A stretch of 64,000 nt of DNA from NCBI GenBank assembly GCA_015295985.1, contig DVDX01000022.1, positions 1 through 64,000 on the forward strand. Reading direction: 5' to 3'. The stretch comes from Synechococcus sp. M44_DOE_062 (GTDB taxonomy: Bacteria; Cyanobacteriota; Cyanobacteriia; Thermostichales; Thermostichaceae). Under the pieces are notes generated by a model. It had not been told where the DNA came from. It did not search any database and saw only the letters and a program-made list of their open reading frames with translations. A program made the translations under genes and the position numbers. Position 1 is the stretch's first letter; every line of letters starts with the position of its first letter. Positions 1,447 to 55,297 of the stretch are shown here, one piece after another.

Positions 1447-2568
<1,122 letters not shown>

Positions 2569-3280: not shown

Positions 3281-3474
3281 AGAGCATCCTCCTCCTCTCT
3301 TTTGCTTTTTTTGACTTCTATTTCGAGTTTTGAGCTTAGCTTTTGGGGCTCAACTTTAGAGGTGTCAGCCAAACCTCTATGCTTCTAGTGTAGTCAAAGC
3401 CATTCCCAGAAATGTAGGGTTTTCTGGAATGTTTCTTAGGTATTTACCCTACAGGTTTATCCATCCAAAACCTT

Positions 3475-3768: not shown

Positions 3769-3852
3769 CGGGCTTTCTCCAGAGCGATGGGGCGATCCCT
3801 GCCATGGTATCAGGGCGACCCAGGCCAGATTTGGAATCCTACTCCACCCTGC

Positions 3853-6486
3853 TCAAGAACGGATCCCGAGCAAATCTTCGATCTTGGGCATTTGCTCAGG
3901 GGGGATAACCCGCCCTTCATCCTCAAAGCCGGGGATCTCGTGGAAGTTGAGGTAGCGATACAGCTCGCCGGCAAAGGGTTGGATTTTGGTGGAGACAATC
4001 TCTTGGTATTCCTCAGGGGTCGGGATCCGTCCCAAAAGGGCGCAGGCGGCAGCTAGCTCAGCGGATCCCAGGTAAACCCGCGCGTCTTTGCCCATGCGGT
4101 TGTTGAAGTTGCGGGTGGAGGTGGACATAACGGTGGCCCCATCTTCTACGCGGGCTTGGTTGCCCATGCACAGGCTGCATCCCGGCATTTCCGTCCTGGC
4201 CCCTGCGGCAGCAAAGGTGCCATATACCCCTTCCGAGCGCAGTTGCGCTTCGTCCATGCGGGTGGGCGGACAGATCCAAAATTGACGCACCTTGGCCCGC
4301 CCTTGGCCTTCTAGGACTTTGGCAGCGGCACGGTAGTGGCCGATGTTGGTCATGCAGGAGCCGATAAACACCTCGTCGATTTTGATGGGGGTGTCTGGAT
4401 TGCCTGCTTCGTGTTGAGCGTGGACTTCGCTCAGGGTCATCACCTTGTCGGGATCGTTGGGGGCACAGACAATCGGCTCGGTGATGGTGCTGAGGTCGAT
4501 TTCGATGACTTCGGCGTATTCGGCGTCGGGATCGGCTTCCATCAGGCTGGGGTTGGCCAGCCACGCTTCCATTTTGGCGATGCGCCGCAGCAAGGTTCTC
4601 GCATCCTGATAGCCACGGGCAATCATGTTTTTCAGCAGCACCACGTTGGAGCGCAGGTATTCTGAGACCGTCTCAATGCTTAGCTTGATGGTACAGCCAG
4701 CACAGTTGCGCTCTGCCGAGGCATCGGTAAACTCGAAGGCTTGCTCCACCTTCAGATCCGGCAGGCCCTCGATCTCCATGATGCGCCCGGCAAAGACGTT
4801 TTTCTTGCCTTTTTTCTCAACGGTCAACAGGCCCCTCTGAATGGCCACGTAGGGGATGGCGTGGACAATATCCCGCAGGGTGATCCCCGGCTGCAGTTGC
4901 CCCTTGAAGCGCACCAGCACAGACTCCGGCATGTCCAAGGGCATCACCCCCATGGCAGCGGCAAAGGCCACCAGACCGGATCCCGCCGGGAAGGAGATCC
5001 CCAAGGGGAAGCGGGTGTGGGAGTCGCCCCCTGTGCCGACAGTATCGGGCAGTAACATGCGATTGAGCCAGGAGTGGATGATGCCATCGCCGGGACGCAG
5101 GACAACACCCCCGCGGGAGGCGAAAAAGTCAGGCAGCTCTTTGTGGGTTTTGATGTCCACCGGCTTGGGATAGGCAGCGGTGTGGCAAAAGCTCTGCAGC
5201 ACCAGGTCGGCGTTGAAGCCCAGACAGGCCAACTCCTTCAGCTCATCGCGGGTCATGGGGCCGGTGGTGTCCTGGGATCCCACGGTGGTTATCAGGGGTT
5301 CGCAGCTTGTGCCCGGACGCACGCCCGGCAGCCCACAGGCTTTGCCCACGATTTTTTGCGCCAGGGTATAGCCCTTGCCGGTGTCTGCCGGTGGAGTGGG
5401 GCGAATAAACAAGGTGGAGGGAGGCAACCCCAAGACTTGGCGGGTTCTGTCGGTGAGGGCACGGCCAATCAACAGGGGAATGCGTCCCCCCGCCCGCACC
5501 TCGTCGGGGAGGGTTACAGGCCGAAGGGAAAAGGTGGAGAGAACTTGGCCCGTCTCAGAGCGGATCACGCCTTCGTAGGGGTATATCGTGACTACCATGC
5601 CCGTTTCCAAGCGGGAGACATCGCACTGGATGGGCAAGGCCCCGGCATCTTCGGCGGTGTTGAAGAAGATGGGCGCAATGGTGCCCCCCAGGATAACCCC
5701 GCCGGCCCGCTTGTTGGGCACATGGGGAATGTCGTGGCCGATATGCCAGAGGAGGGAGTTGAGGGCGGATTTGCGGGAGGATCCCGTGCCTACCACATCT
5801 CCCACAAAGGCAACCGGATGGCCACGGCGCTTCAGCTCGGCAAGGGTGGCCAGGGATCCGGGAGCGCGGGACTCCAGCATGGCCTGGGCGTGGAGGGGGA
5901 TATCTGGGCGGGTGGTGGCGTGGGCGGCAGGGGAAAGGTCATCGGTGTTGATCTCGCCGGCCACCTTGAACACTGTCACGGTGATGGCTGCCGCCAGGGG
6001 GTCTTTGGCAGCAAACCATTCGCCATTGGCCCAAGACTGGATCACCTGGCGGGCATAGGCGTTGCCGGATTGGCTCAGCTCCAGCACATCGTGAAAGGCA
6101 TCGAAGATCAGCAGCGTGTGGCTGAGGGCGCGGGCTGCTGCCGCTGCGATCTCCTGCCGCGCATCCTGCAACAGCTCCAGCAAAACCTGGACGTTGTAGC
6201 CCCCCAGCATCGTGCCCAGCAACTCCACCGCCCGCACGGGAGTGAGCAACGGGGAGGCAACCTCCTCCTTGGCTACTGCCGCCAAAAAGCCCGCTTTCAC
6301 ATAGGCTGCTTCATCGACTCCCGGTGGGACGCGCTCCGTGAGCAGGTGCAACAAAAAGGTTTCTTCGCCGGCAGGCGGAGTCTTCAGCAGCTCGCACAAC
6401 TGACTGGTCTGGGCTGCATTCAGAGGCAGCGGCGGGATCCCTTGCGCCTTGCGGGCAGCGGCGTGTTGGCGGTATTCAGCCAGCAT
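3853..6486 (-). CDS. acnB: Aconitate hydratase B (bifunctional aconitase/2-methylisocitrate dehydratase)
   Basis: 877-aa [4Fe-4S] enzyme that interconverts citrate and isocitrate; AcnB is the aconitase of most cyanobacteria and feeds 2-oxoglutarate to nitrogen assimilation. Length agrees with the AcnB family (~865 aa). Domain order is HEAT-like N-terminal domain (~1-160), swivel domain (~165-380) and the catalytic core. Cluster-ligand regions are visible as [14 protein letters not shown] and GCSLCMGNQ near the C-terminus. The start [10 protein letters not shown] is the canonical AcnB opening. It appears monocistronic, with prfA 95 bp upstream on the same strand. Long open frames on the opposite strand here are shadows of its GC-rich codons. 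Confidence 0.97.
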
Positions 6487-6580
6487 AGGGAGTCTGGGTA
6501 CTCAACATGAGTATCCATTCTATCGCCAGCTCGGTAGAAGAAAGGTGCTCAACAAGGGATCCCCTCCGGCCAAAGCCAGC

Positions 6581-7663
6581 CTAGGACAACTCCGCCAGCA
6601 GCTCTTTCTGGTAAAGGCCAATACAGGCTTGGATCAAGTCGTCCAGCTCCCCATCCAAGATGGGCTGCAGCGGGAAATTCTGGTTGAGGCGGTGGTCGGT
6701 GACTCGGTTTTCTTTGTAGTTGTAGGTGCGGATTTTTTCCGAGCGGGATCCCGTTCCCACCTGCATGCGCCGGGCAGAGCTGATGGAGGCCTGCTGCTCC
6801 TGCAACTTCATCTCGTAGAGTTTGGCCCGCAAAATCTGCATTGCCCGCTGGCGGTTTTGGAGCTGGGAACGCTCTTCGGTACAAAACACCCGGATCCCCG
6901 TCGGCTTGTGGATGAGATCCACCGCCGTCTCCACCTTGTTGACGTTTTGGCCGCCTGCCCCTCCGGAGCGTGCCGTTTTGATTTCGATGTCTTTTGGGTC
7001 GATCACCACCTCCACTTCATCCACTTCCGGCATCACCGCCACCGTTGCCGTCGAGGTGTGGACACGCCCTTGCGCTTCCGTAACAGGCACCCGCTGCACC
7101 CGATGCACGCCAGCTTCAAACTTGAGCTTGCTGTACACCTGATCCCCTTGAATCTCCAGGATCGCCTCTTTGTAGCCCCCCAGCTCTCCTTCGGAGAGGC
7201 TGGCCAGACGCACCGACCAGCCCAGCTTCTCGGCGTAGCGGGTGTACATGCGAGCCAGATCTGCCGCCCACAAAGCGGCCTCCTCTCCCCCCGTGCCGGC
7301 GCGAATCTCCAACATGATGTTCTTGTCGTCGTTGGGATCCCGAGGCAGCAGCAGCAGGGTGAGTTTTTCCTCCAGTTGCTCTTGGCGGGCACGCAGTTGC
7401 TCCAGTTCTGCTCTTGCCATCGCCTCCAGCTCCGGGTCAGAGGCCGATTCCCGCAAGAGCTCTTCTGTCTGCTGCAGATCGCGGTTCAGCTTTTGCCAGT
7501 CGTGAAAAGCCTCGACGGTGGCCTCCAGGGAGGAGCGGGCCTTGGCGATCCGCTGCAGCTCAGCGGGATCCGTGGCCACGTCCGGATCTGCCAGACGCAC
7601 CGTCAGCTCCTGAAAGGTGGCTTCGACATGCTTAAGCTGGTCGATCAGTTGAGCAGAAGCCAT
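6581..7663 (-). CDS. prfA: Peptide chain release factor 1
   Basis: 360-aa class I release factor that reads UAA and UAG and triggers peptidyl-tRNA hydrolysis. The GGQ catalytic loop is present as [14 protein letters not shown], and the N-terminal helical domain and coiled region are intact. The start is placed at [11 protein letters not shown] (7663); an in-frame ATG 12 codons upstream would add a non-conserved tail. It is the last gene of the ribosomal cluster, about 54 bp after rpmE, an arrangement conserved in many cyanobacteria. RF1 decodes UAG, which matters for the amber-interrupted gene at 16-18 kb. Confidence 0.97.
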
Positions 7664-7717
7664 AGACTTGCAATACCCAGGAATCCAAGCGTTGCCCACA
7701 CTCAGACGGGGGAACCT

Positions 7718-7942
7718 CTACTTGGCCTTTTTGCCACCTCCCATGCCGTATTTGCGCATGAACTTCTCCACCCGGCCTTCGCTGTCGATGATCTTCTGGC
7801 TGCCGGTGAAAAAGGGATGGTTGCCCGACCAAACATCCACCTTCAGCTCCGGCTTGGTGGATCCCACTGTCATCACCACTTCGCCGTTGCAGATGACTTT
7901 GGCTTCTGGATACCACTGCGGGTGCAATCCTTTCTTGGGCAT
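7718..7942 (-). CDS. rpmE: 50S ribosomal protein L31 (zinc-less type)
   Basis: 74-aa ribosomal protein. MPKKGLHPQWYPEAKVICNG matches bacterial L31. The CxxC zinc motif is absent: SGNHPF replaces the C-x-x-C-H-P-F of zinc-binding forms, so this is a C-minus L31, typical of cyanobacteria. Start at 7942 is favoured over the in-frame ATG at 7990 by conservation and by a strong Shine-Dalgarno (AAAGGAGGAAAG) just upstream. The C-terminus is basic (GGGKKAK). It sits between rpsI and prfA. Confidence 0.95.
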   Translation of the reverse strand: MPKKGLHPQWYPEAKVICNGEVVMTVGSTKPELKVDVWSGNHPFFTGSQKIIDSEGRVEKFMRKYGMGGGKKAK

Positions 7943-8019
7943 AGCCCTTTCCTCCTTTGGGTCTGTTTCTATACCCTTGTCTATCAACATCTTCCTCGGA
8001 AAAGCAATGGCAGGGATCC

Positions 8020-8430
8020 CTAGCGTTTGGAGTACTGGGGAGCCTTGCGGGCCTTGCGCAGGCCGTATTTCTTCCGCTCCACGGCGCGCGGATCCCGTTT
8101 CAGATAACCCTCTACTTTCAAGGGGCCGCGATTGGCTGGATCCACCTCACAGAGGGCGCGCGCCACCCCCAGCTTGATCGCATCCGCCTGGCCATGAACG
8201 CCGCCGCCATGGGCCCGCACTAGGATATCGTAGGAGTTTTCCAGACCAAGGATCTCCAACGGCCCCTTCACACTGGCCACCAGGGCTTCTTGATACTGCA
8301 GATACTGGTCTCCCGGCCTGTCGTTGATGATGATTTTGCCAGTGCCGGGCACCAAACGCACACGGGCAACAGCGGTTTTGCGACGTCCGGTTCCCCAATA
8401 AACGGCTCGTTGGCTGCTCGCTTGAGTCAT
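8020..8430 (-). CDS. rpsI: 30S ribosomal protein S9
   Basis: 136-aa small-subunit protein whose basic C-terminal tail reaches the P-site tRNA anticodon. The family start [16 protein letters not shown] and the terminal [17 protein letters not shown] are both present, so the gene is complete. Its ATG overlaps the rplM stop by 4 bp (ATGA), implying translational coupling; L13-S9 coupling is nearly universal in bacteria. Confidence 0.98.
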
Positions 8431-8882
8431 GCTTTGGCTCCTGGGATCGTGTTGAGGGGATAAACCTGAGGTTGCTGGGCCTCATGAGGGTGGTGTGGCC
8501 CGGCATAAACTTTCAGCTTGGTGAATTGCCGCCGGCCCAAACGGGTGTGGGGCAACATCCCTTTGACCGCTTTTTCCACCACCCGCTCCGGCAGCCGCGC
8601 CTGCAGTTGGGCAAAGGTTTCCACTTTCATACCGCCAGGGCGACCAGAGTGGCGACGGTAGAGCTTTTGGGTGCGCTTTTTGCCGGTAACTACCACTTTT
8701 TCAGCATTGATCACAACCACGTAGTCTCCCATATCCAGGTGAGGGGTGAAGTCGGGTTTGTGCTTACCCCGCAATAGGGTGGCTACAGCGGCGGCCAGGC
8801 GGCCCAGGCGCTGATTGGCAGCATCCACCAGATACCAGCGGGGTGCTAGAGTCTCGGGGTTAGGAAGGGGAGTTTTGTTCAT
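8427..8882 (-). CDS. rplM: 50S ribosomal protein L13
   Basis: 151-aa early-assembly protein of the large subunit. The body [16 protein letters not shown] and [13 protein letters not shown] is typical. The open frame extends 85 codons upstream without conserved sequence; the ATG at 8882 ([16 protein letters not shown]) is chosen because it gives the family length and avoids overlapping truA. It overlaps rpsI by 4 bp at its 3' end. Confidence 0.97.
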
Positions 8883-8941
8883 GGCAACCAAGGAAGCATA
8901 ATCATCAGGACAAGTCAGGACAAGCTTGGGGATTGTCTGGG

Positions 8942-9799
8942 TCAACCGCAGGAGTGAACCAACGCAGCCGTTGACCGGAGAGCAGAGGGGGCTTCTGTGG
9001 GCAAGGCCCAAAAGGGCGGCGAGTGGGCGAACTGCTGACCGAAGGGATCCGCAGCATAGCCCACATCCGTCAGGCACAGCCCTTGCGGGGGAGCGCTGTA
9101 GCGGGTGCGCATCTGGCTCCAGTCGTTGTGTTGCCACAGGTGGACAAATTGGGCTGGGCTGAGCTCGCCTCGGCCCACCACCTCTAGGGATCCCACCAAA
9201 AGCCGCATCATCCGGTAGAGAAAGCCGCTGGCCTGCACCTCAATGCTGACCAAGTCCCCCAGCCGTTGGCAGAGCACTTCCTGCACCTGCACCCGTGAGT
9301 GGGGGCGATCGGATCCGCGCCGCCGAAAGGCTTCCAAGCTGTGCTCTCCCAGCAGGGAGTTCAGGGCTTCCGCCATCGGCTCCACCTGCAAAGGCCACCG
9401 CACCTGCCAACTAAAGAGGCGCCAGAACACATCCGGTCGCTCCCGGTTCAGGATCAAGTAGCGGTAACGGCGCCAGCGAGCCGAAAAGCGGGCATGCCAG
9501 GAGTCGGGCACCTGAGCGGAAGCCAGTACTACCACATCTTCCGGCAGACAGTCGTTCAGCACCCTCGACCACTCCGCTGCAGGAATGCCGGAGGTGGTGT
9601 CGAAGTGGGCCACCTGGCCTGCAGCATGAACCCCCGTATCGGTGCGGCCTGCCCCGTAGAGAGTTACCGGATGCCCCGCCCGCGACGCAATTGCCTTCTC
9701 CAGTACCCCCTGCACGGTACGGCGGGACGCCTGGCGCTGCCAGCCACAGAACCCGCTGCCGAGGTACTGAATTCTCAGGGCAATGCGACGGTACGGCAT
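8942..9799 (-). CDS. truA: tRNA pseudouridine(38-40) synthase
   Basis: 285-aa enzyme isomerising U38, U39 and U40 in the tRNA anticodon stem. The catalytic Asp lies in [14 protein letters not shown]. The start [20 protein letters not shown] (9799) is the family start; the longer open frame would run into rplQ. It sits 13 bp after rplQ and 59 bp before rplM, the standard cyanobacterial order. The last ~20 residues are not conserved in the family. Confidence 0.96.
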
Positions 9800-9812
9800 G
9801 GATCCCTTCCTG

Positions 9813-10163
9813 CTACACCAGCTCGATGACCGCCATTTCTGCTCCGTCGCCCCGCCGCCGCACGGTGCGCAGGATGCGGGTGTAGCCACCGGCCCGATCC
9901 CGGTAGCGCTCAGGAGCCTGCTCAAACAGGGAGCGCACCAGCTCCTTGTCGTAGATGTAGGCCAGCGCCTGTCGCCGCGCCGCCAGGGATCCCTCCTTGG
10001 CCAGGGTAATCATCTTCTCAGTGGTGGCCCGAATGGCTTTGGCGCGGGCTTTGGTGGTGGTGATCCGCCCTTCCCGCAGCAGAGCCGTGGTCAATGCCCG
10101 CATCAGGGCTTTGCGCTGGTCGGCGGGCTTGTTGAGGTGGGGGGTACGACGGCGGTGACGCAT
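9813..10163 (-). CDS. rplQ: 50S ribosomal protein L17
   Basis: 116-aa protein near the peptide exit tunnel. [20 protein letters not shown] is the diagnostic N-terminus, and the C-terminal [20 protein letters not shown] is complete. It follows rpoA by about 100 bp, as in nearly all bacterial alpha operons. Confidence 0.98.
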
Positions 10164-10261
10164 GGTAACCTCTACCTTTTGTCCTCCATTCTTCAGGGAT
10201 CCTGACTGAGTTTTGACGCGGTCGCCCTAGCGGTGTCGATACTTTGAACAGAACCTAAACT

Positions 10262-11263
10262 CTACGCCTTGCCCTTTTCGCGGGTGCGGGGCAGCGTCAG
10301 ACCAAAGCGGTTTTTCAAAGCCTGCACCACCTCTTCGGCAGATTTCTGACCAAAGTTTTTGATCTCCAGCAAATCTTCCTCGGTATAGAGGAGCAGATCG
10401 GCCACCGTGTTGATCTGAGCCCGTTTCAGGCAGTTGTAAGCCCGTACCGATAGCTGCAGTTCCTCGATGGGGATTTGGTTTTTCTGGTTGTCCTCGTCTA
10501 GCTTGGGCGGCACAGGGGTATCGAAACTAACGTCCTGCAGCGGCGAGAACAAGCCCACCAAAATGCGGGCGGCTTGGCTGAGAGCCTCTTGCGGCGTAAG
10601 GCTGCCATTGGTCCAGACCTCCAGTATTAGCCGATCTTTTTCCAGAGATTGGCCAACCCGAGCCGCTTCCACAGCGTAGTTCACCTTGCGCACCGGCATG
10701 AAGACAGAGTCGATCTGCAGAAAATCAATCGACATTGCCTTGCTGTCGGAGTAATCGACGGCGCGGTAGCCATGTCCCCGGCCAATCATGAACTCCATTT
10801 CCAAAATGGCCCCTTCTGCCAGGGTGGCAATGTGATGACGGGGGTTGATCACCTCCACGTCGCTGGGCAATTGCAGCTTCTCAGCGGTAACTTCCCCTGG
10901 CCCCTGAGCCACCAAACGGCCCACTTGAGTATCCGGGGAACTGGAGCGCAGCACCAGCTCCTTCATGTTCAGAAGGATCTCCATCACGTCTTCCCGCACC
11001 CCTGGCACTGTGGAAAACTCGTGGTTCACCCCAGCGATGCGTACAGCAGTCACTGCCGTCCCTTCCAAGTTAGAGAGCAACACCCGCCGCAAAGCGTTGC
11101 CCACCGTGATCCCTTGACCGCGCTCCAGCGGCCCCAGAGCAAATTTGCCGTAGTGAACGCCGTTATCATCCCGATGAGATTCAACACACTCGGTCTGGTA
11201 AGCAACAGCGCTTGAACTCGCTTTGCTGCTCAGAGGGTGGAGGGTTCGGCTGGTTTGAATCAT
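10262..11263 (-). CDS. rpoA: RNA polymerase alpha subunit
   Basis: Dimerising alpha subunit of RNA polymerase, ~333 aa from the ATG at 11263. The alpha N-terminal domain carries GITVGNALRRVLLSNLEGTA; the C-terminal domain carries ELQLSVRAYNCLKRAQINTV and binds UP elements and activators. The frame is open to 11326 (354 aa), and two adjacent ATGs occur at 11266 and 11263. Conserved sequence begins only at YQTECVES, so even the short form has ~20 non-conserved residues, and the exact start is uncertain. It is followed by rplQ and preceded by rpsK. Confidence 0.96.
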   Translation of the reverse strand: MIQTSRTLHPLSSKASSSAVAYQTECVESHRDDNGVHYGKFALGPLERGQGITVGNALRRVLLSNLEGTAVTAVRIAGVNHEFSTVPGVREDVMEILLNMKELVLRSSSPDTQVGRLVAQGPGEVTAEKLQLPSDVEVINPRHHIATLAEGAILEMEFMIGRGHGYRAVDYSDSKAMSIDFLQIDSVFMPVRKVNYAVEAARVGQSLEKDRLILEVWTNGSLTPQEALSQAARILVGLFSPLQDVSFDTPVPPKLDEDNQKNQIPIEELQLSVRAYNCLKRAQINTVADLLLYTEEDLLEIKNFGQKSAEEVVQALKNRFGLTLPRTREKGKA

Positions 11264-11416
11264 CATAGTGGCCCCGTCCGTCTGGCTCGATATCCATTTG
11301 GAGAACTGATAAAACTTCGAGGTCATCTCACGCTTGGGCAGACCGGTGGCTAAAGCATCGCGTGGCTCTGGAGAAAACGCCTGCAGACGCTCGACCAGCC
11401 TTCAACACAGAATCTT

Positions 11417-11803
11417 TCAGACACGCCGCCGCTTGGGAGGACGGCAACCGTTGTGGGGAATAGGGGTAATATCTCGAATGAGAGTAATCTCCAAGCCTGT
11501 TGCCTGCAGGGCGCGAATGGCGGTTTCCCGACCGGCTCCCGGCCCGCTCACCATCACTTCGATCTGGCGCATGCCGTTCTCCATGGCCTGACGCGCTGCA
11601 CTTTCTGCTGCCATTTGGGCGGCGAAGGGAGTGCCCTTTTTGGCCCCCTTAAAGCCCGTAGAACCGGCTGAGGCCCAAGACACCACATCGCCGTTGGGAT
11701 CCGTGATGGTGACAATGGTGTTGTTGAAGGTGGACTGTATGTAGGCCACCCCATTGGGGATGTTCTTTTTGACTTTACGTCCGCGCCGTTGCTGCCGAGC
11801 CAT
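11417..11803 (-). CDS. rpsK: 30S ribosomal protein S11
   Basis: 128-aa platform protein of the small subunit, contacting the Shine-Dalgarno helix. [20 protein letters not shown] (ATG at 11803) is the standard start; an in-frame ATG 24 codons upstream gives no conserved sequence. The C-terminus [13 protein letters not shown] is complete. It lies between rpsM and rpoA. Confidence 0.98.
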
Positions 11804-11887
11804 GATCCATGTGTCCTTGCAATCGACTGTCTGGGGTTGGGATTCGGGATGGTGGGCGATTTGTGCCTTCCGCACAAAGCCCAGCGA

Positions 11888-12271
11888 CTATTTCTTGGCA
11901 GGAGCTTTTTTCTTGCCGGCCACCGTTTTCCTGACCCCCTTGCGGGTGCGGGCGTTGGTGCGGGTGCGCTGACCGCGCACGGGCAGATTCAGGCGATGGC
12001 GACGACCTCGATAGGTGCCGATGTCAATCAGCCGCTTGATGTTCATCGCCTCCTGGCGGCGCAGATCCCCTTCCACCTGGTATTCGCCCTCCACCACCGT
12101 CCGTAGGGCGGCTACCTCAGCGTCGGTGAGGTCGCGGGTACGAGTATCGGGATTGATACCAGTCTTCGCCAAGATTTGGCGGGAGCGGGTTAGCCCAATG
12201 CCATAGATGTAGGTGAGGGCAATTTCCACTCGCTTTTCTCGGGGGATGTCAACTCCCGCAATCCGTGCCAT
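11888..12271 (-). CDS. rpsM: 30S ribosomal protein S13
   Basis: 127-aa head protein of the small subunit that contacts P-site tRNA and the inter-subunit bridge. [20 protein letters not shown] and the basic tail [20 protein letters not shown] identify it. It carries a Lys/Ala-rich end (KKKAPAKK) slightly longer than usual. It starts about 240 bp after rpmJ; that gap shows no gene. Confidence 0.98.
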
Positions 12272-12510
12272 AGTCAGGGGTACCTTACCAAAGCAAAATC
12301 AAATCAAACCAACTCGAACAAACTTGTCCAGAAGGATAGGATTGAGTTGCCTACCTGAGATGGGATCCTCATTCCGGGGGATGTGGCCGTGGCGATGCTG
12401 GTCTTGGGATCTATGCCCACCGAGAGGTCTAGCCAACGTTTTGCTCAGTTGTGTTGGGATCCCTTGCCTTTGTCTCCCGCTGCAGGCTGAACCCACCTGC
12501 CATCGAACCT

Positions 12511-12627
12511 CTAGCCCTGCCGCTGCTTGTGCTTCGGGTTGGAAGAACAAATCACCATCACCCGACCGTGACGGCGGATAACTCGGCATTTTTCACAGAT
12601 CCGACGGACGGAAGGCCGCACCTTCAT
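12511..12627 (-). CDS. rpmJ: 50S ribosomal protein L36
   Basis: 38-residue protein. It begins [20 protein letters not shown] and ends with the C-terminal [11 protein letters not shown]. The zinc ligands are the Cys pair CEKC, a later Cys and the His near the end. One extra Ser (CSSNP) relative to the usual 37-aa form is present. It is the first gene of the minus-strand ribosomal cluster. In most cyanobacteria infA, adk and secY precede it, but here a divergent gene starts only 165 bp away. Confidence 0.93.
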
Positions 12628-12791
12628 GGTTGATCCTGACAAAACCAGCGAATATCCATTCTATGTTGGTCTGGGCAGCCTGTCAAAATGTGTTTGGGTT
12701 TGCTGACACTCAGCGGACAGTTGGGTTGGCTATGCTGGTTGAGCAAGGCTCTCTTGAGTCAAAGCAGGCGCAGCAGTGGAGGGAGAAGGCC

Positions 12792-14810
12792 ATGCGGTGG
12801 CAATGGCTGGTTGTGCTGGGCGGTGTGCTGGGGCTGGGATCCCCTGTGTTGGGGCAAGGGATCCCTTTGCCGGCAGCGGGCTCTTCCTCTACAGTGGGGA
12901 ACTTGGCTACGAACGGGAACGGCCCGAGAACAGAGGGGGACTGGCTTCTGCCCTTGCGCAGCTCCGCCGATCGCATCGATGGGGTACCCAGTCGGGGCTG
13001 GGTTGCGGTTGGGCTGTTGGAGGAGCAGGCGGTGACTCTGCTGGATGGGGCCAGCGGGGATCCCTTGTGGCAGGTGGCAGTGGGGTTTGCCCCCAGCGTG
13101 GTGCGGGTGGATGAGGCGCGGCAGGTGGTGTATGCCTCTGGCCCCAATGCTCCTGGGTTGGTGGCCCTCGATCTGCTGACGGGGGAGCTGATTCAGGCCT
13201 ATGGGCTGCCGGCAGGGGTTTTGGATATTGCCGTGGATGCGGCCACAGGGCGGGTTTTCGCTTCCATGCCTTCTGCCCAAAGTCTGGCGGTGATGGCTGC
13301 TCCCCTGCGCGTCAGTGGTGCGCAAAGTGACCCCTCAGAGCAGCCGCAAGCTCGCAATTTGCCGATGCCCGGCCCCCCCTTGGCGCTGGCCTATGATGCG
13401 CAGCGGGGATCCCTGTTTGTGGGCCTAGCCGGGGAGGATCCCCTCAGTTTGCTGGTGGTCAACCCAGACAATGGGGAGCTGTTGGCCCGTTGGCGGGGCG
13501 GTCATACTCCAGAAGCCATGGCCCTGGATGCGGAACGGCAACGCCTGGTGGTGCTCAACTCCGGCAGCCAAGATCTAACGGTTCTGGATCTGAGCCGCAG
13601 CGGCGAGGCCCTGCAGCGGGTTGGCCTGGATTGGCGACCGACGCGGCTGGCCCTTTCCCCGGATGGACGTTGGGCTTACGTGACCTCCCGCGATAGCGAC
13701 CGCCTGCAACTGGTGGATTTGCAGACGGGGCGATTGGCAGCCTCACTGCGGCTGCAGGGACAACCCACAGGTCTGGTGATGTTGAACGGTCGGGATCTGT
13801 GGGTGGTGGCAGCAGGGATCCCGGCTTTGCGCCGTTTGCCGAATGTGGAAGCCCAAGCTGTCGCTATGCAGCGCTCTCGCGAACAGGCGACCCTTGCCGT
13901 CCGCAATGGCGGGACGGAGTCCTCGAATGGGGGAGCAAGCCAGCAGGAAGGAGTGGGTGTGGTAACCGGGCGGGTGCTGGATATCGCCGGCCAACCGGTT
14001 CAGACGGGGGTTTTGCACTTGGCCGCCACGACAACCCAACCCAGGCAAACCGTTCGCATTGCTGCCGACGGCACTTACGTGTTGCCGGAACTGCCGGCTG
14101 GCCTGTATTTGGTGGATGTGGAGGTACCGGGTTTTCCATTGACCAGCACCCAGGTGGAAGTCCGGGCCGGCTTTGTCTCCACTCAGGATATTCGTCTGCC
14201 GCCGGGGGAACCGACCCGCCAGCCGGAGGGCATTGGCCTTTTGCCGGATGAACCCGTTTACTCGGATGAGCTGGCCCGCCACCTGAGCATGGCCCTGAAG
14301 GAGTTGCAGCCCCAGCGACCGGTGCTGCTCTTGAAGGGGCCTTTGGGGCCGGATCCTCGGTTTGAGCCGCTTCTGCCCCTCACCCAGGGCCTGACTTTGT
14401 TGGATCGGGATGAGCGCTACACCTCCGACTTGGCGAAGCTGAAGGTGATTGGGGATGCCCTGGGATTGCGCTACATCCTTTTGACCCAGATGCAGATCTC
14501 GCGGGACTACAACCGCCAGGGCAACTCTCTGCTGAATACAGCCTTACGCTTTTTGGCCCCGACGGTGCCGGTGGAAATCCCCAATTTCACCCCCAACCAG
14601 TTGCGCAGCCGTGGGGTGGTGGTGGTGGTGGACTTGCAGAGGGATCGACCGGGGGATCGGGCTCGCTACTACGAAGCCTATGGGCGGGATGATGTGGGCG
14701 GGGATCCGATGTTTGAAGATGCGGCAGCGGGCCTGTTTCGGCTGCAGGTGCGCAACATGGTGCCGATGTTTGTCCAACAATGGCAAGCCAACAACCCCTT
14801 TTCGGGGTGA
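12792..14810 (+). CDS. Exported beta-propeller protein with carboxypeptidase-regulatory-like domain
   Basis: 672-aa predicted secreted or periplasmic protein. The ATG at 12792 has a good ribosome site (GGGAGAAGG) and opens a signal peptide (MRWQWLVVLGGVLGLG, likely cut after VLG). Residues ~40-350 contain repeated blades of the YVTN/NHL kind, such as LALSPDGRWAYVTSRDSD and LVVLNSGSQDLTVLDL. Then comes a Ser/Asn-rich linker and a carboxypeptidase-regulatory-like/CNA-B type domain (GRVLDIAGQPVQ to LPELPAGLYLVDVEVPGF). The last ~200 residues form an unnamed domain. No catalytic residue is recognised; a scaffold or ligand-binding role is inferred. The next gene shares the regulatory-like domain and probably the operon. 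A short dispersed repeat encodes part of the linker (RNGGTESSN). Confidence 0.75.
   Translation: MRWQWLVVLGGVLGLGSPVLGQGIPLPAAGSSSTVGNLATNGNGPRTEGDWLLPLRSSADRIDGVPSRGWVAVGLLEEQAVTLLDGASGDPLWQVAVGFAPSVVRVDEARQVVYASGPNAPGLVALDLLTGELIQAYGLPAGVLDIAVDAATGRVFASMPSAQSLAVMAAPLRVSGAQSDPSEQPQARNLPMPGPPLALAYDAQRGSLFVGLAGEDPLSLLVVNPDNGELLARWRGGHTPEAMALDAERQRLVVLNSGSQDLTVLDLSRSGEALQRVGLDWRPTRLALSPDGRWAYVTSRDSDRLQLVDLQTGRLAASLRLQGQPTGLVMLNGRDLWVVAAGIPALRRLPNVEAQAVAMQRSREQATLAVRNGGTESSNGGASQQEGVGVVTGRVLDIAGQPVQTGVLHLAATTTQPRQTVRIAADGTYVLPELPAGLYLVDVEVPGFPLTSTQVEVRAGFVSTQDIRLPPGEPTRQPEGIGLLPDEPVYSDELARHLSMALKELQPQRPVLLLKGPLGPDPRFEPLLPLTQGLTLLDRDERYTSDLAKLKVIGDALGLRYILLTQMQISRDYNRQGNSLLNTALRFLAPTVPVEIPNFTPNQLRSRGVVVVVDLQRDRPGDRARYYEAYGRDDVGGDPMFEDAAAGLFRLQVRNMVPMFVQQWQANNPFSG
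13861..13924 (+). repeat. Two copies of a ~25-bp dispersed repeat inside a coding region
   Basis: One copy at 13861-13888 contains CTCTCGCGAACAGGC, shared with the copy at 14941-14970. The second, at 13897-13924, contains GGCGGGACGGAGTCC, shared with copies at 24908 and 53375. Both are read through in frame within the linker of the 672-aa exported protein. Confidence 0.6.
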
Positions 14811-14898
14811 GGATCCCTGCAGCAGGATTCTGTCCTGTTCACCTCAGGGGTGGGGAGCAGAATAGAACCGACTGCTATTGTCGGATGCAGCCTTCGCC

Positions 14899-15960
14899 AT
14901 GCCTCTTTTCTTCTTCCATCCTCTCCGGCGCAGGATCAGCTATCGCTACGCGACGCTCTCGCGAACAGGCAGTCTGGCCCTCTGCGGCTGGTTGGCACTG
15001 GCTTCAGGAGCGCTGGCTCAGGCTCCGGCCACCCCCATTCCCCGGTTGACGCCGTTGTTTCCCCTCCAAGACAAAGGGCAGCCCCAAGGAACAGCACGGC
15101 TGGTGGGGCAGGTGAGCAACAGCGTGGGACAACCTGTGGCGGGGGCCCAGGTGCAGTTGGAGGGCATGGAGAACCCCAATCAGCCGATTCAAACCGATGA
15201 GCGGGGCGCTTTTGAGCTCAACCACGCCCCAGCCGGGCGCCGGATGTTGACGGTGTGGCACCCCGACTATGAAAAGGCAGAGCAGGAGATCCTGCTGCAA
15301 GCGGGCCTGACCACCCCTGTGGATGTGGTTTTGCAGGTGCCCATTCGGCCTCAACCCCGTCGTCGCCTTGGCATTTTGGGGGTGGGAGGGCTAGAGCATA
15401 CCCAACTGTTGGGCCAGCGTCTGGCCATAGAGGCAGTGCGTCTGGGCTTGATCCCCAACGGCGAGAAGGTGGTGCCTCTGGACAATCGTCGCATTCAGCC
15501 CATTTTGCAGAAGGTGGGCTGGCCCATCTACGAGCTGTTTGAGTGGGATCGCCGCAAGCCCGAAGCGGTGGGCCAATTTTTCGATTACCTGGGCCTGGAA
15601 GCCATCGTCATTGCCCGTGTCGATGTCCTCACCCGACCGGCTTCACCAACAGAGCTGAGCCTGCGTTCCCGCAGCCGCCTGGAACTGTGGCGGTTTGATG
15701 AGCAAGGCAACCTGGTGGTGGATATCCTGGCCGAGGCCGGTCGCGATCAGGTGGAGCGGGGTAACCTCAATGCTGCCGAGTTGGCCCAGCTTTATCAAAT
15801 CCAAGTGACCCAAATGGCTGCTGAGGTGGGATCCCGCTGGAAGGAGAATCACCCGCTGGCCCAATACCTAGAACTGGCTCAGGGAGAAGCCCCACCCCCA
15901 CGCTCTCGCCTGGATACGGCTGTGGAGCTGCGCATTCCCCCTGCCACGCCTGCTCCCTAA
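14899..15960 (+). CDS. Exported protein with carboxypeptidase-regulatory-like domain
   Basis: 353-aa predicted secreted protein, 88 bp after the beta-propeller gene and probably co-transcribed. The signal peptide is unusual: after MPLFFFHPLRRRIS comes a segment encoded by a dispersed repeat (YRYATLSRTG), then the hydrophobic core LALCGWLALASGALAQA with a likely AQA cleavage. Residues ~70-150 form a carboxypeptidase-regulatory-like beta-sandwich (GQVSNSVGQPVAGAQVQLEG). The remainder resembles, in layout, the C-terminal domain of the upstream protein. A TTG seven codons upstream (14878) is an alternative start. Enzyme motifs were not seen; partner of the upstream product by inference. Confidence 0.7.
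   Translation: MPLFFFHPLRRRISYRYATLSRTGSLALCGWLALASGALAQAPATPIPRLTPLFPLQDKGQPQGTARLVGQVSNSVGQPVAGAQVQLEGMENPNQPIQTDERGAFELNHAPAGRRMLTVWHPDYEKAEQEILLQAGLTTPVDVVLQVPIRPQPRRRLGILGVGGLEHTQLLGQRLAIEAVRLGLIPNGEKVVPLDNRRIQPILQKVGWPIYELFEWDRRKPEAVGQFFDYLGLEAIVIARVDVLTRPASPTELSLRSRSRLELWRFDEQGNLVVDILAEAGRDQVERGNLNAAELAQLYQIQVTQMAAEVGSRWKENHPLAQYLELAQGEAPPPRSRLDTAVELRIPPATPAP
14941..14970 (+). repeat. Dispersed repeat inside a signal-peptide region
   Basis: TATCGCTACGCGACGCTCTC followed by GCGAACAGGC. It is closely related to the copy at 13861 and encodes YRYATLSRTG between the basic n-region and the hydrophobic core of the signal peptide. Confidence 0.6.
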
Positions 15961-16058
15961 GTCTCAATCGGCCAGAAAGGGGTGCAGAACAGCTCCGGGG
16001 TCTCTTCTGTTGTCGTGAAAGTGATTTTTCTCTGATTGTCGTAAGCCGTTGAGTTCAT

Positions 16059-18110
16059 CTAGCGACGGCGGGAGGAGCCGCCCGAAGAGTGACGCGAAGA
16101 GCTGCCCCCCGAGGAATGGCGAGAGGAGGAGCCGAAAGAGCCAGAAGAGCGCGAGGAACTGCCCAAGGATCCCGACGATCCCATTCCTGAAGAACGGCCA
16201 AAGCCTTTGCCCCAAGAGGAGTCAGAGTCAAAGACCACAACTGTGCTGCGGCTCCGCCGGTAATGTTCTTGCTCGGCCTGCCACAGGGATTGCTCCAGGC
16301 GATTCAAGGTTTCCTGGCAGCGCCGCAAAGCGGTTTGAGCTCGCTCTATCTCTTGCTCCGCCTGCTCGAAGTTTTGCTCGGAGAGGCTGTTCCAGCGCTG
16401 GATGGCCGGGATCCCTTCTTGGCTCACGTAGAGGAGTAGCCGCCTCGCTTCTTCAAGGGCTTTTCGATCCTCATCTGACGGGTGGCGGTAGAAGCCGGCA
16501 GGGCCGTACACATGGGTCATGCGGCGATCCAGGTCGGGTAGGCGTTGCCTAAGGGTTTGGAGCTGAGTCTGAATTCGACCGAGTTCGGTCTGGTTTTTCT
16601 GGTGTTGCTGGATGTAGGCGCGGCTGTGGCTCTCTAGGCTGTCGATGGCTCTGCGCAGGTCAGGGAGGGCGTCGGGAAGGGATCCCAGGGCAGCCTCCAG
16701 TTGGGCCAGGTTGCCGGCTTGCTGGGGGAAGCGGTAGCCCTGGTGTTGCCAGGTTTGCAGTTGAGCCAAAAGATCCAGCAAGCGGCTCCCGGCTTCGGCA
16801 AGCTCTAACCCATCCAGATCCAGGCCATTTTGCTGCAGAGATCGAACTTGGCCGAGTAGCCCGGCCAGACCAGAGAGAAGAGGGGTCGGGATCCCGGTAG
16901 GGGCTTGGCGCAGCTGGTCTTCCAAGGTGGCCAGCTTGGCGGAGAGCAGGGCGGAGGCCTTTTGTAGGCGATCCAGCTCCCGTTGCACTTGGTCGATCAG
17001 TCCAAGAATGCCATCGGCATCCAATTGGTCTGGATCCACCCGCAGCAGATTGACCTTCAGGGGACGACCTTCCAACTGTTGGTGTAGGTCTTGCAGTTGG
17101 CGCAGCAGGGATCCGCCTTCCTCAGTTGGGTCGGAGGGCAGAAACTGAACCGGGTTGAGCAGGGTTTGCAGTTGCTCCTCAGTGAGGTTGAGCAGATGCT
17201 TGCGGCTGCCCACCAGGCTGACGTAGAGGCGTTCCCAGGCTTCCACCAGTTGCTCCAGCTCTGCGAGGGTGGTGGGAGTTTGGTCAGCGAGCTGTCCCTG
17301 CGCCAAAAAAGCTTGCCTGAGAGCACGCCGACAGGCTTGCAGGGTGTCGAGGATGCGGGATCCCAAATGGGGATAGCGCTCCCCTCCCAGGATTAGATAG
17401 AGCCGGTAAAAGATCGTCTCCTCCGGCTTGTCGCTGGGCAACAGGCCTTCTAGGGCCAAGAGCAGGGTGGCCACAGGAGCTCGCAAGGCTTGGATCTGGT
17501 TTTGCAGTTGTCTGCGGCGACGCTGCCTGCGCCAGTACATCGTGCCGCCGATCACCCCTGCGGCACCTGCCCCCACCCCTGCCAACGGCCAGGGCGAAGG
17601 CGGAGGCGGGTAGGTCAGAAGATAGCTCTCCCGCAGGCCGGCAACCAGCGCTTGCGAGGGATCCCCGCGGCGGAGCAGGTCGCGCACCGCGGCCCTAATG
17701 CGTTCGTACTCGCGGTCGGCAGTGTCGAGACGGGTGCCGTAGAGGGCTTCGCCGTAGGTGATGTTGAACCCCCAAGGCAGGGAAGTATCGGTGCTGGCGG
17801 CCACGGTCAAACCACTGCGATCGTAAAAGTCTGCCTGCGACAGATCCCGCAGCCCGGCCTCCGCCTCCACGCGATCCAAACGTTCAAACCAAGCCTGTTC
17901 TGAGGGATCTCGCGCATCGGTGAGGTAAACTAGCACTCGAAAGCCTTTTGTTGCCTAGGGAGCAGCCGCCTCGCAAACTTGGTCAGCATCCACTGCCAAC
18001 CTGGACTCAAGGCGCAGGGCGGCGTAGGGGCAGGTGGCCCCTTGAGCTTGAGCAGGGTCGGGAGTGAGTAGCCACGCCAGCATCAACAGAAGAGCGACAA
18101 GAAACTGCAT
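16059..18110 (-). pseudogene. Secreted TPM-like coiled-coil membrane protein, interrupted by an in-frame amber codon
   Basis: Read as one frame, 18110 to 16059 encodes ~683 residues. It opens with a signal peptide (MQFLVALLLMLAWLLTP, AQA cleavage), then CPYAALRLESR and VCEAAAP, a TAG codon at 17957-17955, and continues without frame change (ATKGFRVLVYLTD). This N-terminal domain resembles the TPM_phosphatase fold of exported cyanobacterial proteins. The ORF downstream of the stop can start only at GTG 17936 (625 aa) and would lack the signal peptide. Further on come a TM helix (LAGVGAGAAGVIGGTMYW), a long Leu/Gln-rich coiled coil (~150-560) and a Ser/Gly/Arg tail. A single C-to-T change in a CAG codon would explain the stop. 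Nonsense mutation, sequencing error or readthrough remain open. Confidence 0.7.
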
Positions 18111-18661
18111 ACCCTTGACCCAGCCGACAGTCCACTCTACTCTAGCGCTATGCCCTGGAAAGCTAGGGTAGGGTTGCTGTTCTCAATGTTCTCAGGATCC
18201 AGCCCTTCTGCAGCAGTCCAAAGGAGGAGGAGCAGGATCTAAAGTAGCCGTCTCGTTTGCCGCTGCCCATGACCTCAGAGCCAACCTCTTCTCGGTGAAG
18301 AGCAAGATCCTCTAAAGATCCAGCATCTAGCAAGGCCAGAAGACCTGCTGCTGGGATCCCCTGATGGAGTTCCACAGTCATCACCCTCTGGATCCCTTGT
18401 CCCTCATCCACTCATGCCCAATAGGGATCCCGCTGGAGAGGAAAACACTCGTTGGGCCGACATATAGAACCGGCTTAAAGTTTTGCTCGTCGAGGCTGTT
18501 CCGGTGCTGGTTGCCTTGGCGGTGGGGAGCTTATCGTCCGGGATCCCTTCCGGGCTTATCCAGTAGGGTTGCACACCATTTCCTCGCCTCTGACCGACTT
18601 AGATAGGGCAGGGGGTTTTTGGCCTGTTTCCCCAAGGGTTTTGTCGAGAGAGGACTGGACG
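18111..18661. other. Intergenic region with a degenerate copy of part of the TPM-like gene
   Basis: About 550 bp between divergent genes. An 82-codon open frame (18163-18411, minus) has no recognisable features and was not called. At 18480-18510 a 31-bp segment matches 16371-16401 inside the TPM-like gene at 27 of 31 positions and would encode NSLDEQNF against NSLSEQNF, suggesting a remnant of a duplicated fragment. The last ~100 bp should hold the promoter of the RutA-like gene, but no convincing -35/-10 pair was found. Confidence 0.4.
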
Positions 18662-19717
18662 ATGAGGCATCTGCAGTTTGGGGTGTTTATCCCCATCACC
18701 AACAACGGCTGGATCATCTCGGTGAATTCGCCGCAGTACATGCCAACTTTTGAGCTGAACAAGCAGATCACCCTCTTGGCGGAACGGTATAGTTTTGAAT
18801 TTGTCCTGTCTATGGTGAAGTGGCGGGGGTTTAAGGGGAAAACCCAGTTTTGGGATCACGCCTTGGAGTCTTTTACCCTGATGGCGGGCTTGGCAGCGGT
18901 GACGGAAAGGATCCATCTCTACGCTTCGGTGGCTCTGCCTACGCTCCACCCTGCTGTGGCCGCTCGCATGTGTGTCACTCTGGACAGCATCAGCAAAGGA
19001 CGGTTTGGCCTCAACATCGTGACTGGCTGGAACAAGCTGGAATATTCGCAAATGGGCCTGTGGCCGGGGGATGAATACTACAGCTATCGCTACGACTATG
19101 CCACCGAGTATGTGCAGGTGATGAAGCTGCTTTGGGAGCAGGGGCGTGTTTCTTATCAGGGCAAGTATTTTCAGTTGGAAGACTGCGTTTGCCAGCCTCG
19201 CCCTTCGCGGGAGATCCCGATTGTTTGCGCGGGGCACTCGGAGCGGGGCATGCGCTTTACGGCGGAAATGGGCAACCACAACTTCATCTTGGCTCCCGTT
19301 GAAGAGGCTGGTCGCATGAGCGATCGGCTGAAGGAGCTGGGCCAACGGGTGGGACGCACTGTGGGTACCTACGCTTTGTTTACAGTGGTGATGGGAGAAA
19401 CCGACGCAGAAGCCCAAGCTGTTGCAGAGCACTACATGGAAGGGGGAGATATCGAGGCCCTGCTGGGTTGGAAAGGGGCGGCCAACACAGATCCGGTGGG
19501 GGTGAACGTGAAAAGCTACCAGGCAGAGGCATTTATGGGGATCCCAACCCTCATTGGTTCCTATGAAACTGTGGCAAAAGAACTGGATCGCATTGCCAGC
19601 CAAACCAGCATCGATGGGATTCTGTTCACGTTCCCGGATTTTGTGACCGATGTGCAGCAATTTGGGGAGCAGGTCATGCCTCTGTTGAACTGCCGCCCGG
19701 TGCTACAGCCAGTCTGA
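18662..19717 (+). CDS. LLM-class flavin monooxygenase, RutA-like
   Basis: 351-aa FMN-dependent luciferase-like monooxygenase. The closest remembered family is RutA (pyrimidine oxygenase), seen in FGVFIPITNNGWIIS, GRFGLNIVTGWNKLEY and PIVCAGHSERGMRF. Known RutA opens the uracil ring using O2 and reduced FMN supplied by RutF. No rutB-F genes flank it, so the substrate may be another nitrogen heterocycle or a sulfonate. The start at ATG 18662 is supported by MRHLQFGVF and by the site GAGAGGA; the frame is open 31 codons further upstream. Confidence 0.85.
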   Translation: MRHLQFGVFIPITNNGWIISVNSPQYMPTFELNKQITLLAERYSFEFVLSMVKWRGFKGKTQFWDHALESFTLMAGLAAVTERIHLYASVALPTLHPAVAARMCVTLDSISKGRFGLNIVTGWNKLEYSQMGLWPGDEYYSYRYDYATEYVQVMKLLWEQGRVSYQGKYFQLEDCVCQPRPSREIPIVCAGHSERGMRFTAEMGNHNFILAPVEEAGRMSDRLKELGQRVGRTVGTYALFTVVMGETDAEAQAVAEHYMEGGDIEALLGWKGAANTDPVGVNVKSYQAEAFMGIPTLIGSYETVAKELDRIASQTSIDGILFTFPDFVTDVQQFGEQVMPLLNCRPVLQPV

Positions 19718-19777
19718 CCAGGTCAGCGGCGCGGTTCCCCCATAGCACTTTGCTTCTGAGGCTAGCTTTCCCATTGG

Positions 19778-20365
19778 CTATTTCTGCCGGGGATCCCCCC
19801 TGGTTGCCCGCAGGACTCTGTCCCACCGGCGCGAAAGGGCGAGCCATCCCAGTTTTAAGGCCGGCCCCAGCACCTGCCAGCCGCGAAACCGAACCACCAG
19901 GGATCCCTGCCCGTGCCAACCGATGCGGGTGAAGGTCAAGCGCAGGTGTTGAGCCAGCGGAAGAGGTAGAGCGGCGATCAGCCCCAAGCATTGCCCCGTC
20001 AACGCCGGATCGGCAAAGCCAATTTCTACGCCGCCTTGCCAGGATTGGATGCGAAGTTGCTTGCCCAGCTTCCACAGGTAGGGCCAATAACACTGCCAAT
20101 CTCCGGGGGAGCAATGTTCTCCCCGCTGTACCGGCCAACGCCCGCGAAGGCGCAGGGATCCCCAACGCCATTCCCAGCCACGGCGGCTGCCCCGCACGGC
20201 CCAGCCCCCCCACCCGTGCCATTTCCAGATCCAGGCAAGGGGGCCCTGCCAGGGTTTGCGGTAGCGCACAATGAGCTGTTGAGGCCAGAAGAAGAGAGTT
20301 CCCAGGAAGCCGGCTAGCAGCAATCCCAAAGGACTCCATCCCGCTAACGCGAACAGCTTGAGCAC
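19778..20365 (-). CDS. DUF2953-like membrane-anchored protein
   Basis: 195 aa with an N-terminal hydrophobic helix (SPLGLLLAGFLGTLFFW) and a Trp-rich body. The motif GFADPALTGQCLGL resembles the G-x-x-DPA-x-TG hallmark of DUF2953 proteins, otherwise best known from spore-formers. Its start overlaps the 3' end of the thioesterase gene by 22 bp, so the two are likely co-translated. A competing frame (19674-20339) is open on the same strand but lacks any recognisable motif. Function unknown. Confidence 0.65.
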   Translation of the reverse strand: MLKLFALAGWSPLGLLLAGFLGTLFFWPQQLIVRYRKPWQGPLAWIWKWHGWGGWAVRGSRRGWEWRWGSLRLRGRWPVQRGEHCSPGDWQCYWPYLWKLGKQLRIQSWQGGVEIGFADPALTGQCLGLIAALPLPLAQHLRLTFTRIGWHGQGSLVVRFRGWQVLGPALKLGWLALSRRWDRVLRATRGDPRQK

Positions 20366-51723: not shown

Positions 51724-52440
51724 CCTACGCCTGGCCCTTCGCGGGTACGGACTCTAGACCGCATCCCTATTGCGACTCGCTCCTGCAGCAGCCCAATTTT
51801 GGGTCAGGCGCTGTCCCATCCTCATCCTGACCTCCTTTGCCGCTTCTGGTGCGCAGAGCGCTTTCCTGCTCCTCTTGGGTCTTGCCAAAGATCCCGTGTC
51901 ATCTCACAGGTAGCCAGGCAAGACCGACAAGCCCAGAGCAATATCCCAGGCTTTCTTCGACAGCCTGTGGAAAACCTGTGGAAATCCAGCGAAGCCCGCC
52001 CCAGCTCCGATGGAACCCCCAGCCATATCTAGGGGGAAGGATTCTCTACCTTAGGGGATCTCACACTGACTGTGCGTTAATTTTTATGAATTTGTCAGGA
52101 AATCATAACATTAGCCTGTGGAAAACCTGTGGAAAAACCTGGAAAATCTGTGGAAAACCTGTGGAAAAACCCCCCAAGTTATCAACAGGTATAAATACTC
52201 TGTGGAAAAGTGGTCAAGTTATCCACAGTTTTTCCACAGGTGGGGAATAAGCTCAAAAGCTCATGGCACAAGGTGTTGACGATCACTTTCCACAGTTTCC
52301 ACAGCCCCTACTACTACTAGATCAAAAAATTAAATTCGATAGGGATCGCAATTTCAGATCTATCCTACGCGCGAGGCAAATTTTCCAAAACTTGCCCGCA
52401 AGGGGAGGGATCCAACCGGAGCAGTCGGTGTAGGATCTGC
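51724..52440. other. Putative chromosomal replication origin (oriC)
   Basis: 717 bp without genes, between rel and dnaN. It holds at least eleven DnaA-box-like 9-mers. TGTGGAAAA-type boxes are at 51966, 51977, 52117, 52128, 52149, 52160 and 52201; TTATCCACA is at 52219; TTTTCCACA-type boxes are at 52230, 52286 and 52295. Pairs start 11 bp apart (about one helical turn), and two pairs are two turns apart. AT-rich stretches lie at 52072-52113 and 52316-52340, candidates for the unwinding element. Position next to dnaN is where many cyanobacteria have their origin. Confidence 0.8.
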
Positions 52441-54097: not shown

Positions 54098-55297
54098 TTA
54101 AACAAAGCGGTGGGTAAACTCCTGCACCAAGTCCACACGTCCTTTGCGCAAAACTGCCGGATCCAAGCGCTCAGTGGTGTTGCAAGTCATCAGCACCACC
54201 AGCCTTTGTTCACAGTCGGCGTATTCTGCATCAAGCACGCTTTGGTGGAGGGTACCATCCAGCAGACTGAGGATGCGTTCGGTTTTGGTGCTCCGCTGGG
54301 CCACTTCACTGGCCCGGTCTTGGGCGAGGTTGTCTGCCTCATTGACGATCAGGCACACCCGCTCCAGATAGGAAGGCGCAATGAACTCCTGCACGGCTTC
54401 ATGATCCAAGATAAACACCACATAGCCCAGTGGTACCAGCAGCTCGTGGGCCACCGCTTGCGTCCAGGCGGTTTTGCCGGTACCTGGGATCCCGTGTACC
54501 AAGACCGCCAACCGCTCCTGCTGCAGAATTCGCTGTTGAACTTGATCGGTAAAGGCTTGAATCTCGGCGGGAAAAGAACTGATTGGATGTGGGCTTTGGA
54601 TTTGCCCAATCCGGTTTTGGTAGCCGCTCACCATCACCGCCAGGTTGTAGGTAACCTTGCGGATCAAAGGCTTGAGATCGACCCCAATCAGGGTGTAGCG
54701 ACGGCGGGTTTGATAGGTGGTCTGGATTTGCAGCCAAATCTGATGCTCCGGCCAAAAGGCATAGACAGTGCCCGGACTGCTGATCTGATCCCAGCCGTTG
54801 AAATGCTCAACCGGGTAGTAGAAGTAGCGATCCATGTACACTTGCACGATCTGTGCTGGTCGCCCCAGATGGGCCAAGATTTTGAGAACGATAACTTCTT
54901 GCAGACGATTCAAGACGTAATGAATGGGAATCTGGTCACGGCTCACCTGCTGCCGCAGCGGAGTTTCCGTCGAAAGATAGCTGCGAAAGGTGCAGTCGGG
55001 GCCGGGTGGGGGTGGGGTAATGCTGTTCCAGAATTCCTCGATCTCGTAACGGGTGTTCTCTGAAAACAGGTTAAGCAAATTGGCCAGCGGGCTATATTCG
55101 TTGCGTCCCACTGCGTTGGCGATATCGCTGCACACATCCAGAATTTTCTCGGCCAATTCCCAGGGATCGCGCGTAGCCAGTTGCCAGAAATACTCGACAT
55201 CGAAATGGCGGAGCAGAGGTCTCCACCCGGATTGCAGGAGATTGTAGCTGTTGGTCTGCCGATAGCTGGGGTAATAGTCGTCGTAACCGTTATCCAT
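54098..55297 (-). CDS. AAA-family ATPase
   Basis: 399 aa. The C-terminal half is an AAA ATPase: Walker A GIPGTGKT (269-276), Walker B-like RVCLIVNEADNL, sensor 1 LVVLMTCNTTE and an arginine pair near the end (LRKGRVDLV). The N-terminal 240 residues form a domain I cannot place; it contains a Tyr-rich beginning and a Pro run (92-100). The protein is cytosolic, without a protease or nuclease motif. Function unknown. The position beside dnaN and the origin may be chance. Confidence 0.75.
   Translation of the reverse strand: MDNGYDDYYPSYRQTNSYNLLQSGWRPLLRHFDVEYFWQLATRDPWELAEKILDVCSDIANAVGRNEYSPLANLLNLFSENTRYEIEEFWNSITPPPPGPDCTFRSYLSTETPLRQQVSRDQIPIHYVLNRLQEVIVLKILAHLGRPAQIVQVYMDRYFYYPVEHFNGWDQISSPGTVYAFWPEHQIWLQIQTTYQTRRRYTLIGVDLKPLIRKVTYNLAVMVSGYQNRIGQIQSPHPISSFPAEIQAFTDQVQQRILQQERLAVLVHGIPGTGKTAWTQAVAHELLVPLGYVVFILDHEAVQEFIAPSYLERVCLIVNEADNLAQDRASEVAQRSTKTERILSLLDGTLHQSVLDAEYADCEQRLVVLMTCNTTERLDPAVLRKGRVDLVQEFTHRFV

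Follow-up and report, generated by a model that had tools for sequence, protein, structure and literature searches.

A DnaA-box array beside dnaN as the predicted DnaA-dependent origin of a hot-spring-type cyanobacterium

The origin element termed the basal unwinding system (BUS) was described in Bacillus subtilis and is predicted in 85% of 2070 species (PMC8287927). It pairs a DnaA box, or two of them, with a run of three or more DnaA-trios no more than 16 bp further on; the trios have the form 3'-NAN-5', most commonly 3'-GAT-5', and box-to-trio distances peak at 10-13 bp (PMC8287927). The origin of Synechococcus elongatus PCC 7942 is linked to dnaN and contains both DnaA boxes and DnaA-trios, and the BUS of this species is unwound in vitro by its own DnaA (PMC8287927; PMC7198777). 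Other cyanobacteria behave differently. Synechocystis 6803 and Nostoc 7120, both with irregular GC skew, replicate without DnaA from several origins, and DnaA is not needed in Synechocystis, Nostoc and PCC 7002 (PMC7198777). For Synechococcus sp. JA-3-3Ab, Ori-Finder (2008) predicted an oriC beside dnaN; the accessible part of that report describes a dnaN-adjacent cluster of TTTTCCACA, away from dnaA, on a chromosome without typical GC skew, and in that part neither trios nor a fixed spacing is mentioned (PMC2275245). Near-zero GC skew has been reported for both JA-3-3Ab and JA-2-3B'a (PMC2099444).

The locus described here comes from a 64,000-nucleotide stretch of DNA, hereafter the window, whose organism is a different species from JA-3-3Ab, very probably in the same genus. 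It shares with the JA-3-3Ab prediction the TTTTCCACA cluster next to dnaN, the distance from dnaA and the lack of typical skew, and it differs in its left neighbour, which is dus in JA-3-3Ab and rel in the window. A box scan of the window places 11 DnaA boxes in 338 bp (51966-52303), seven on the minus strand (51966, 51977, 52117, 52128, 52149, 52160 and 52201) and four on the plus strand (52219, 52230, 52286 and 52295). Four pairs lie 11 bp apart (51966/77, 52117/28, 52149/60 and 52219/30) and one pair 9 bp apart (52286/95), and the step from 52128 to 52149 is 21 bp. A sequence-only reading of this DNA had listed the same boxes, the seven-to-four division of orientations and these spacings, all of which the scan reproduces. 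That reading assigned the putative origin to 51724-52440, which is the entire rel-dnaN intergenic region; the array and its unwinding region are narrower, occupying approximately 51960-52360.

The array has two arms. At the left edge of the conserved unit is a distal minus-strand pair, TTTTCCACA and ATTTCCACA (51966-51985), whose 51966 box is invariant in nine aligned genomes. An AT-rich block (52075-52114) separates this pair from the main array, where two further minus-strand pairs, each made of two TTTTCCACA, occupy 52117-52136, as located by the scan and by comparison with relatives, and 52149-52168, the latter invariant in nine genomes. The last minus-oriented box, also TTTTCCACA, is at 52201-52209, and the proximal plus-oriented pair, TTATCCACA and TTTTCCACA, is at 52219-52238. 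The two-armed layout proposed earlier is real, and it is common across the class; overlooked was a twelfth, weak box with one mismatch, TTATCAACA (52179-52187, plus strand), which lies within the minus arm and aligns with TTATTAACA in most relatives. The same reading placed a single perfect TTATCCACA (52219) at the centre of the array. Because this site varies among relatives, being TTTTCCACA in G005, G006 and G002, we rejected TTATCCACA as the organising centre. Escherichia coli oriC likewise has two arms of opposed boxes, flanked on one side by an AT-rich unwinding element, and it differs in its box set, its IHF/Fis sites and its gene context.

The concentration of boxes is specific to this locus. 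TTTTCCACA occurs 47 times in the 2.93-Mb genome; seven copies fall inside 273 bp of the array and the rest are single or paired. The phased pair TGTGGAAAANNTGTGGAAA has three copies genome-wide, all within the array, and an exact-box cluster of the array's size was not found elsewhere in the 2.93-Mb genome. The rel-dnaN locus therefore carries a box cluster well over background, as expected of an oriC.

The proximal arm ends in a BUS module that the sequence-only reading, whose proposal of an origin with phased boxes is otherwise supported, had overlooked. Tandem boxes CTTTCCACA and GTTTCCACA with 9-bp spacing (52286-52303, plus strand) are followed by a GC-rich spacer, GCCC (52304-52307, plus strand; compare PMC8287927), and by four perfect DnaA-trios (52308-52319), which read 3'-GAT-5' on the minus strand and CTACTACTACTA on the plus strand and are invariant in nine genomes. 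The AT-rich DNA unwinding region extends 3' of the trios (52320-52360). Among the 40-mers of the 64-kb window, those starting at 52075 and 52308 rank second and third in instability, respectively; the latter (52308-52347) joins the trios to AT-rich DNA and provides the unwinding element expected beside the boxes of an oriC. The segment 52286-52319 contains both the boxes and at least three trios within 16 bp that define BUS. The upstream BUS box is 13 bp from the trios, a distance that counts in favour of an oriC because it falls inside the published 10-13 bp peak. In Bacillus subtilis, the BUS (DnaA-boxes 6/7, GC spacer and DnaA-trios) has the same element order and orientation and also lies beside dnaN, with the remaining boxes arranged otherwise than in the window; dnaA adjoins the Bacillus subtilis origin as well. 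We predict that the BUS at 52286-52360 is a site of DnaA-dependent strand separation. A mirror-image BUS left of the minus arm was also considered. On the reverse strand, the window's genome (G000) reads CTA ATG TTA after the 52117 pair; in an alignment judged by eye, G005, G006, G007 and G003 have no clean trio run there, and the candidate was rejected.

The genome encodes one complete DnaA, with AAA+ and domain IV matches, and its dnaA gene is located away from the array. In G003 and G004, two complete congeners that we sampled, numbering begins at dnaA, and the array is some 1.6 Mb away. We found no box cluster in the 20 kb around the window genome's own dnaA or in bases 1-20000 of G003 and G004, and an alternative origin beside dnaA was rejected. 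It is very likely, judging from these elements, that the rel-dnaN array is the canonical DnaA-dependent chromosomal oriC of this hot-spring-type cyanobacterium; the origin proposed by the sequence-only reading gains support from the BUS and from the nine-genome conservation and class-wide layout described below. DnaA, supplied from elsewhere on the chromosome, would bind the distal minus-box arm and the proximal plus-box arm, where the boxes are spaced by close to whole numbers of helical turns, so that adjacent DnaA molecules would sit on the same side of the double helix. An oligomer growing out of the tandem boxes (52286-52303) would pass the GCCC spacer onto the trios at 52308-52319, capture the minus strand there and melt the AT-rich DNA at 52308-52360, which would allow helicase loading beside dnaN. 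We infer DnaA binding, melting and the start of replication at the array from its sequence organization.

Clusters of DnaA boxes can also serve as regulators, and the array could in principle be a DnaA-controlled dnaN promoter or a DnaA-titration site instead of an origin. Consistent with such a role, a -10-like TAGGAT (52430-52435, plus strand), probably part of the dnaN promoter, is found shortly before the gene and does not vary among the nine aligned genomes. However, neither a simple promoter nor a simple titration site would be expected to contain trios and an AT-rich unwinding region, and the genome offers no second such cluster, by dnaA or elsewhere, to act as the origin. We regard a purely regulatory array as very unlikely. 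The dnaN gene itself (beta clamp, TIGR00663; 52441-53880, plus strand) has a conserved start, probably the ATG at 52468 or a more internal one. An AAA-type ATPase gene (54098-55297, minus strand) faces dnaN in convergent orientation, and the two genes remain neighbours in G003, G004 and G005.

Conservation within the family follows the predicted origin elements. The alignment comprises nine genomes, eight of the window's family and one of a sister family. Invariant columns make up 81 of 99 in the boxes, 12 of 12 in the trios and 43 of 359 elsewhere. The array stays with dnaN in the window's family, whereas its other neighbour varies. On the left is dnaA in G001, G005, G006 and the sister-family genome G048, and in the window the rel/spoT-type (p)ppGpp synthetase/hydrolase gene (TIGR00691; 49441-51723, plus strand), which holds this place only in the window's own species (G000) and in G004. 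By eye, the left neighbour is dihydrouridine-synthase-like in G003, RNase-Z-like in G007 and a transporter-like ORF in G002. The linkage to dnaA and dnaN expected of an oriC is therefore present, with dnaN directly downstream and dnaA upstream in four of these genomes. Outside the G000/G004 pair, homology with same-genus relatives starts approximately 5-15 bp left of the first box. The simplest history would be an ancestral order dnaA-oriC-dnaN followed by several breaks just outside the array. Within the genus, synteny is lost immediately beyond the first box pair. Separately, a very AT-rich block without boxes (CACACTGACTGTGCGTTAATTTTTATGAATTTGTCAGGAAAT..., 52062-52110) inside the putative origin has 34 of 49 columns invariant in the genus, as compared to 201 of all 359 columns outside the elements; it is possibly the binding site of another origin protein.

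The same organization recurs across the class. A strict BUS pattern requires two CCACA cores at a 9-base spacing and, after a short gap, three trios. It matched 158 of the 390 Cyanobacteriia genomes searched, at essentially one site in each, and the reversed-pattern control matched one genome of 390. A looser pattern matched 211 of the 390, some of the extra matches having the look of chance. Because the strict pattern misses variant origins, its absence does not prove that a genome has no origin. Of 78 loci with available flanks, 75 have a co-directional dnaN immediately downstream and 18 have dnaA upstream. Box positions were compared in 78 loci from 24 families, aligned on the first BUS box; this set overlaps, and is not identical to, the 78 loci used for gene neighbours. 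One locus, L028 (family f31), a chance match to the strict pattern without other boxes, was excluded from the statistics on layout.

In this alignment, minus boxes recur at -178, -157, -146, -135, -114 and -84 and plus boxes at -65, -54, 0 and +9, with positions 0 and +9 set by the search pattern itself and the sample made up of genomes with a strict BUS. Outside the window's order, occupancy weighted by family is 0.64 at -178, 0.74 at -157, 0.44 at -146, 0.69 at -135, 0.52 at -114, 0.81 at -84, 0.85 at -65 and 0.95 at -54, against a background with a mean of 0.009 and a maximum of 0.14. Orientation switches between the arms: 343 of 355 boxes from -250 to -75 point left, and 140 of 142 non-BUS boxes from -72 to +15 point right. 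The strongest periodicity in the minus arm is at 10.5 bp (0.71, versus at most 0.46 at the other periods tried). Helical phasing and the two arms are therefore general features, and the comparison of box spacing with other cyanobacterial origins that the sequence-only reading had called for bears out its claim of phasing. The window's 52201 box corresponds to -84, and its 52219/30 pair to -65 and -54. Its family keeps -157, -135, -84, -65, -54, 0 and +9. It is without -178, -146 and -114, in place of which there are boxes near -169 and -126, and it has an extra distal box or pair approximately 310-330 bp upstream. The minus-arm pairs are near-identical 11-mers, as a chance or functionless tandem duplication of the 11-bp unit CCTGTGGAAAA might produce. 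That explanation is contradicted because the same positions and orientations are shared by 24 families, distant ones included, and because conservation across the nine genomes is position by position; it is extremely improbable. Our literature search, with most subscription journals outside its scope, returned no description of a class-wide spacing rule, or of such a rule holding regardless of skew and gene context.

GC skew, proposed earlier as a check on origin position, was sampled in 20-kb stretches, 40 from G003, 40 from G004 and 20 from G048, which belongs to another family of the same order. The right-left skew contrast at the array is not significant in these three genomes (p 0.61, 0.21 and 0.78, respectively), and neither GC nor gene-strand skew switches at the array locus in the sampled relatives. 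These results accord with the near-zero or atypical skew published for JA-2-3B'a and JA-3-3Ab (PMC2099444, PMC2275245). G003 has a weak skew minimum about 50 kb from the array, which we do not count as evidence. The check is uninformative in an almost skewless lineage, and a skew switch located elsewhere, which was to have refuted the origin, is inapplicable as a test because the lineage has near-zero skew. In this respect the lineage is unlike S. elongatus PCC 7942, which has regular GC skew.

The lack of usable skew (PMC2099444), together with the DnaA independence of other irregular-skew cyanobacteria, could also indicate a relic origin, in a lineage that now initiates without DnaA at several sites and in which the array is kept for another reason or has yet to decay. 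However, the boxes and trios hardly vary, in contrast to the drifting bases around them, and the window's genome keeps both dnaA and the BUS. Genomes without DnaA tell against a relic as well. DnaA domain IV is absent from 13 of 336 high-quality class genomes (G142, G149, G156, G300, G323, G343, G352, G355, G358, G361, G367, G385 and G388), and the strict BUS occurs in 0 of these 13, an association that involves few families and is not phylogenetically independent. Families f31, f32 and f36, which have several dnaA-less members, are without a convincing BUS even where dnaA remains. The absence of BUS from dnaA-less families fits the DnaA independence of Synechocystis, Nostoc and PCC 7002. A relic is accordingly unlikely, and an active DnaA-dependent oriC is the reading we prefer.

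A close relative already has a predicted oriC on the dnaN side; the point worth following is a class-wide layout that is independent of skew and of neighbours. We tentatively suggest, at somewhat short of even odds, a single fixed cyanobacterial ruler, phased at 10.5 bp, conserved whatever the gene context or GC skew, and lost with DnaA dependence. Were this true, the positions of the boxes would suffice to tell which cyanobacteria still start replication via DnaA. The window's lineage is a discriminating case because its skew is irregular and yet its BUS and layout are intact; the ruler would predict that this zero-skew lineage is DnaA-dependent, against the usual reading of irregular skew. 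A class-wide ruler would thus offer a direct test of which cyanobacteria use a DnaA-oriC system and of whether irregular skew signals its loss. In the hot-spring lineage, the array locates a probable origin where GC skew gives no help and dnaA lies elsewhere, and natural variants with shifted boxes or changed neighbours should be useful for finding the essential parts of an origin.

The window also carries an abundant short repeat. GGGATCCC, present in 80 copies in the 64 kb versus 2.6 expected, is a HIP1-like repeat of different sequence, and no copy of GCGATCGC, the HIP1 octamer usual in cyanobacteria, occurs there.
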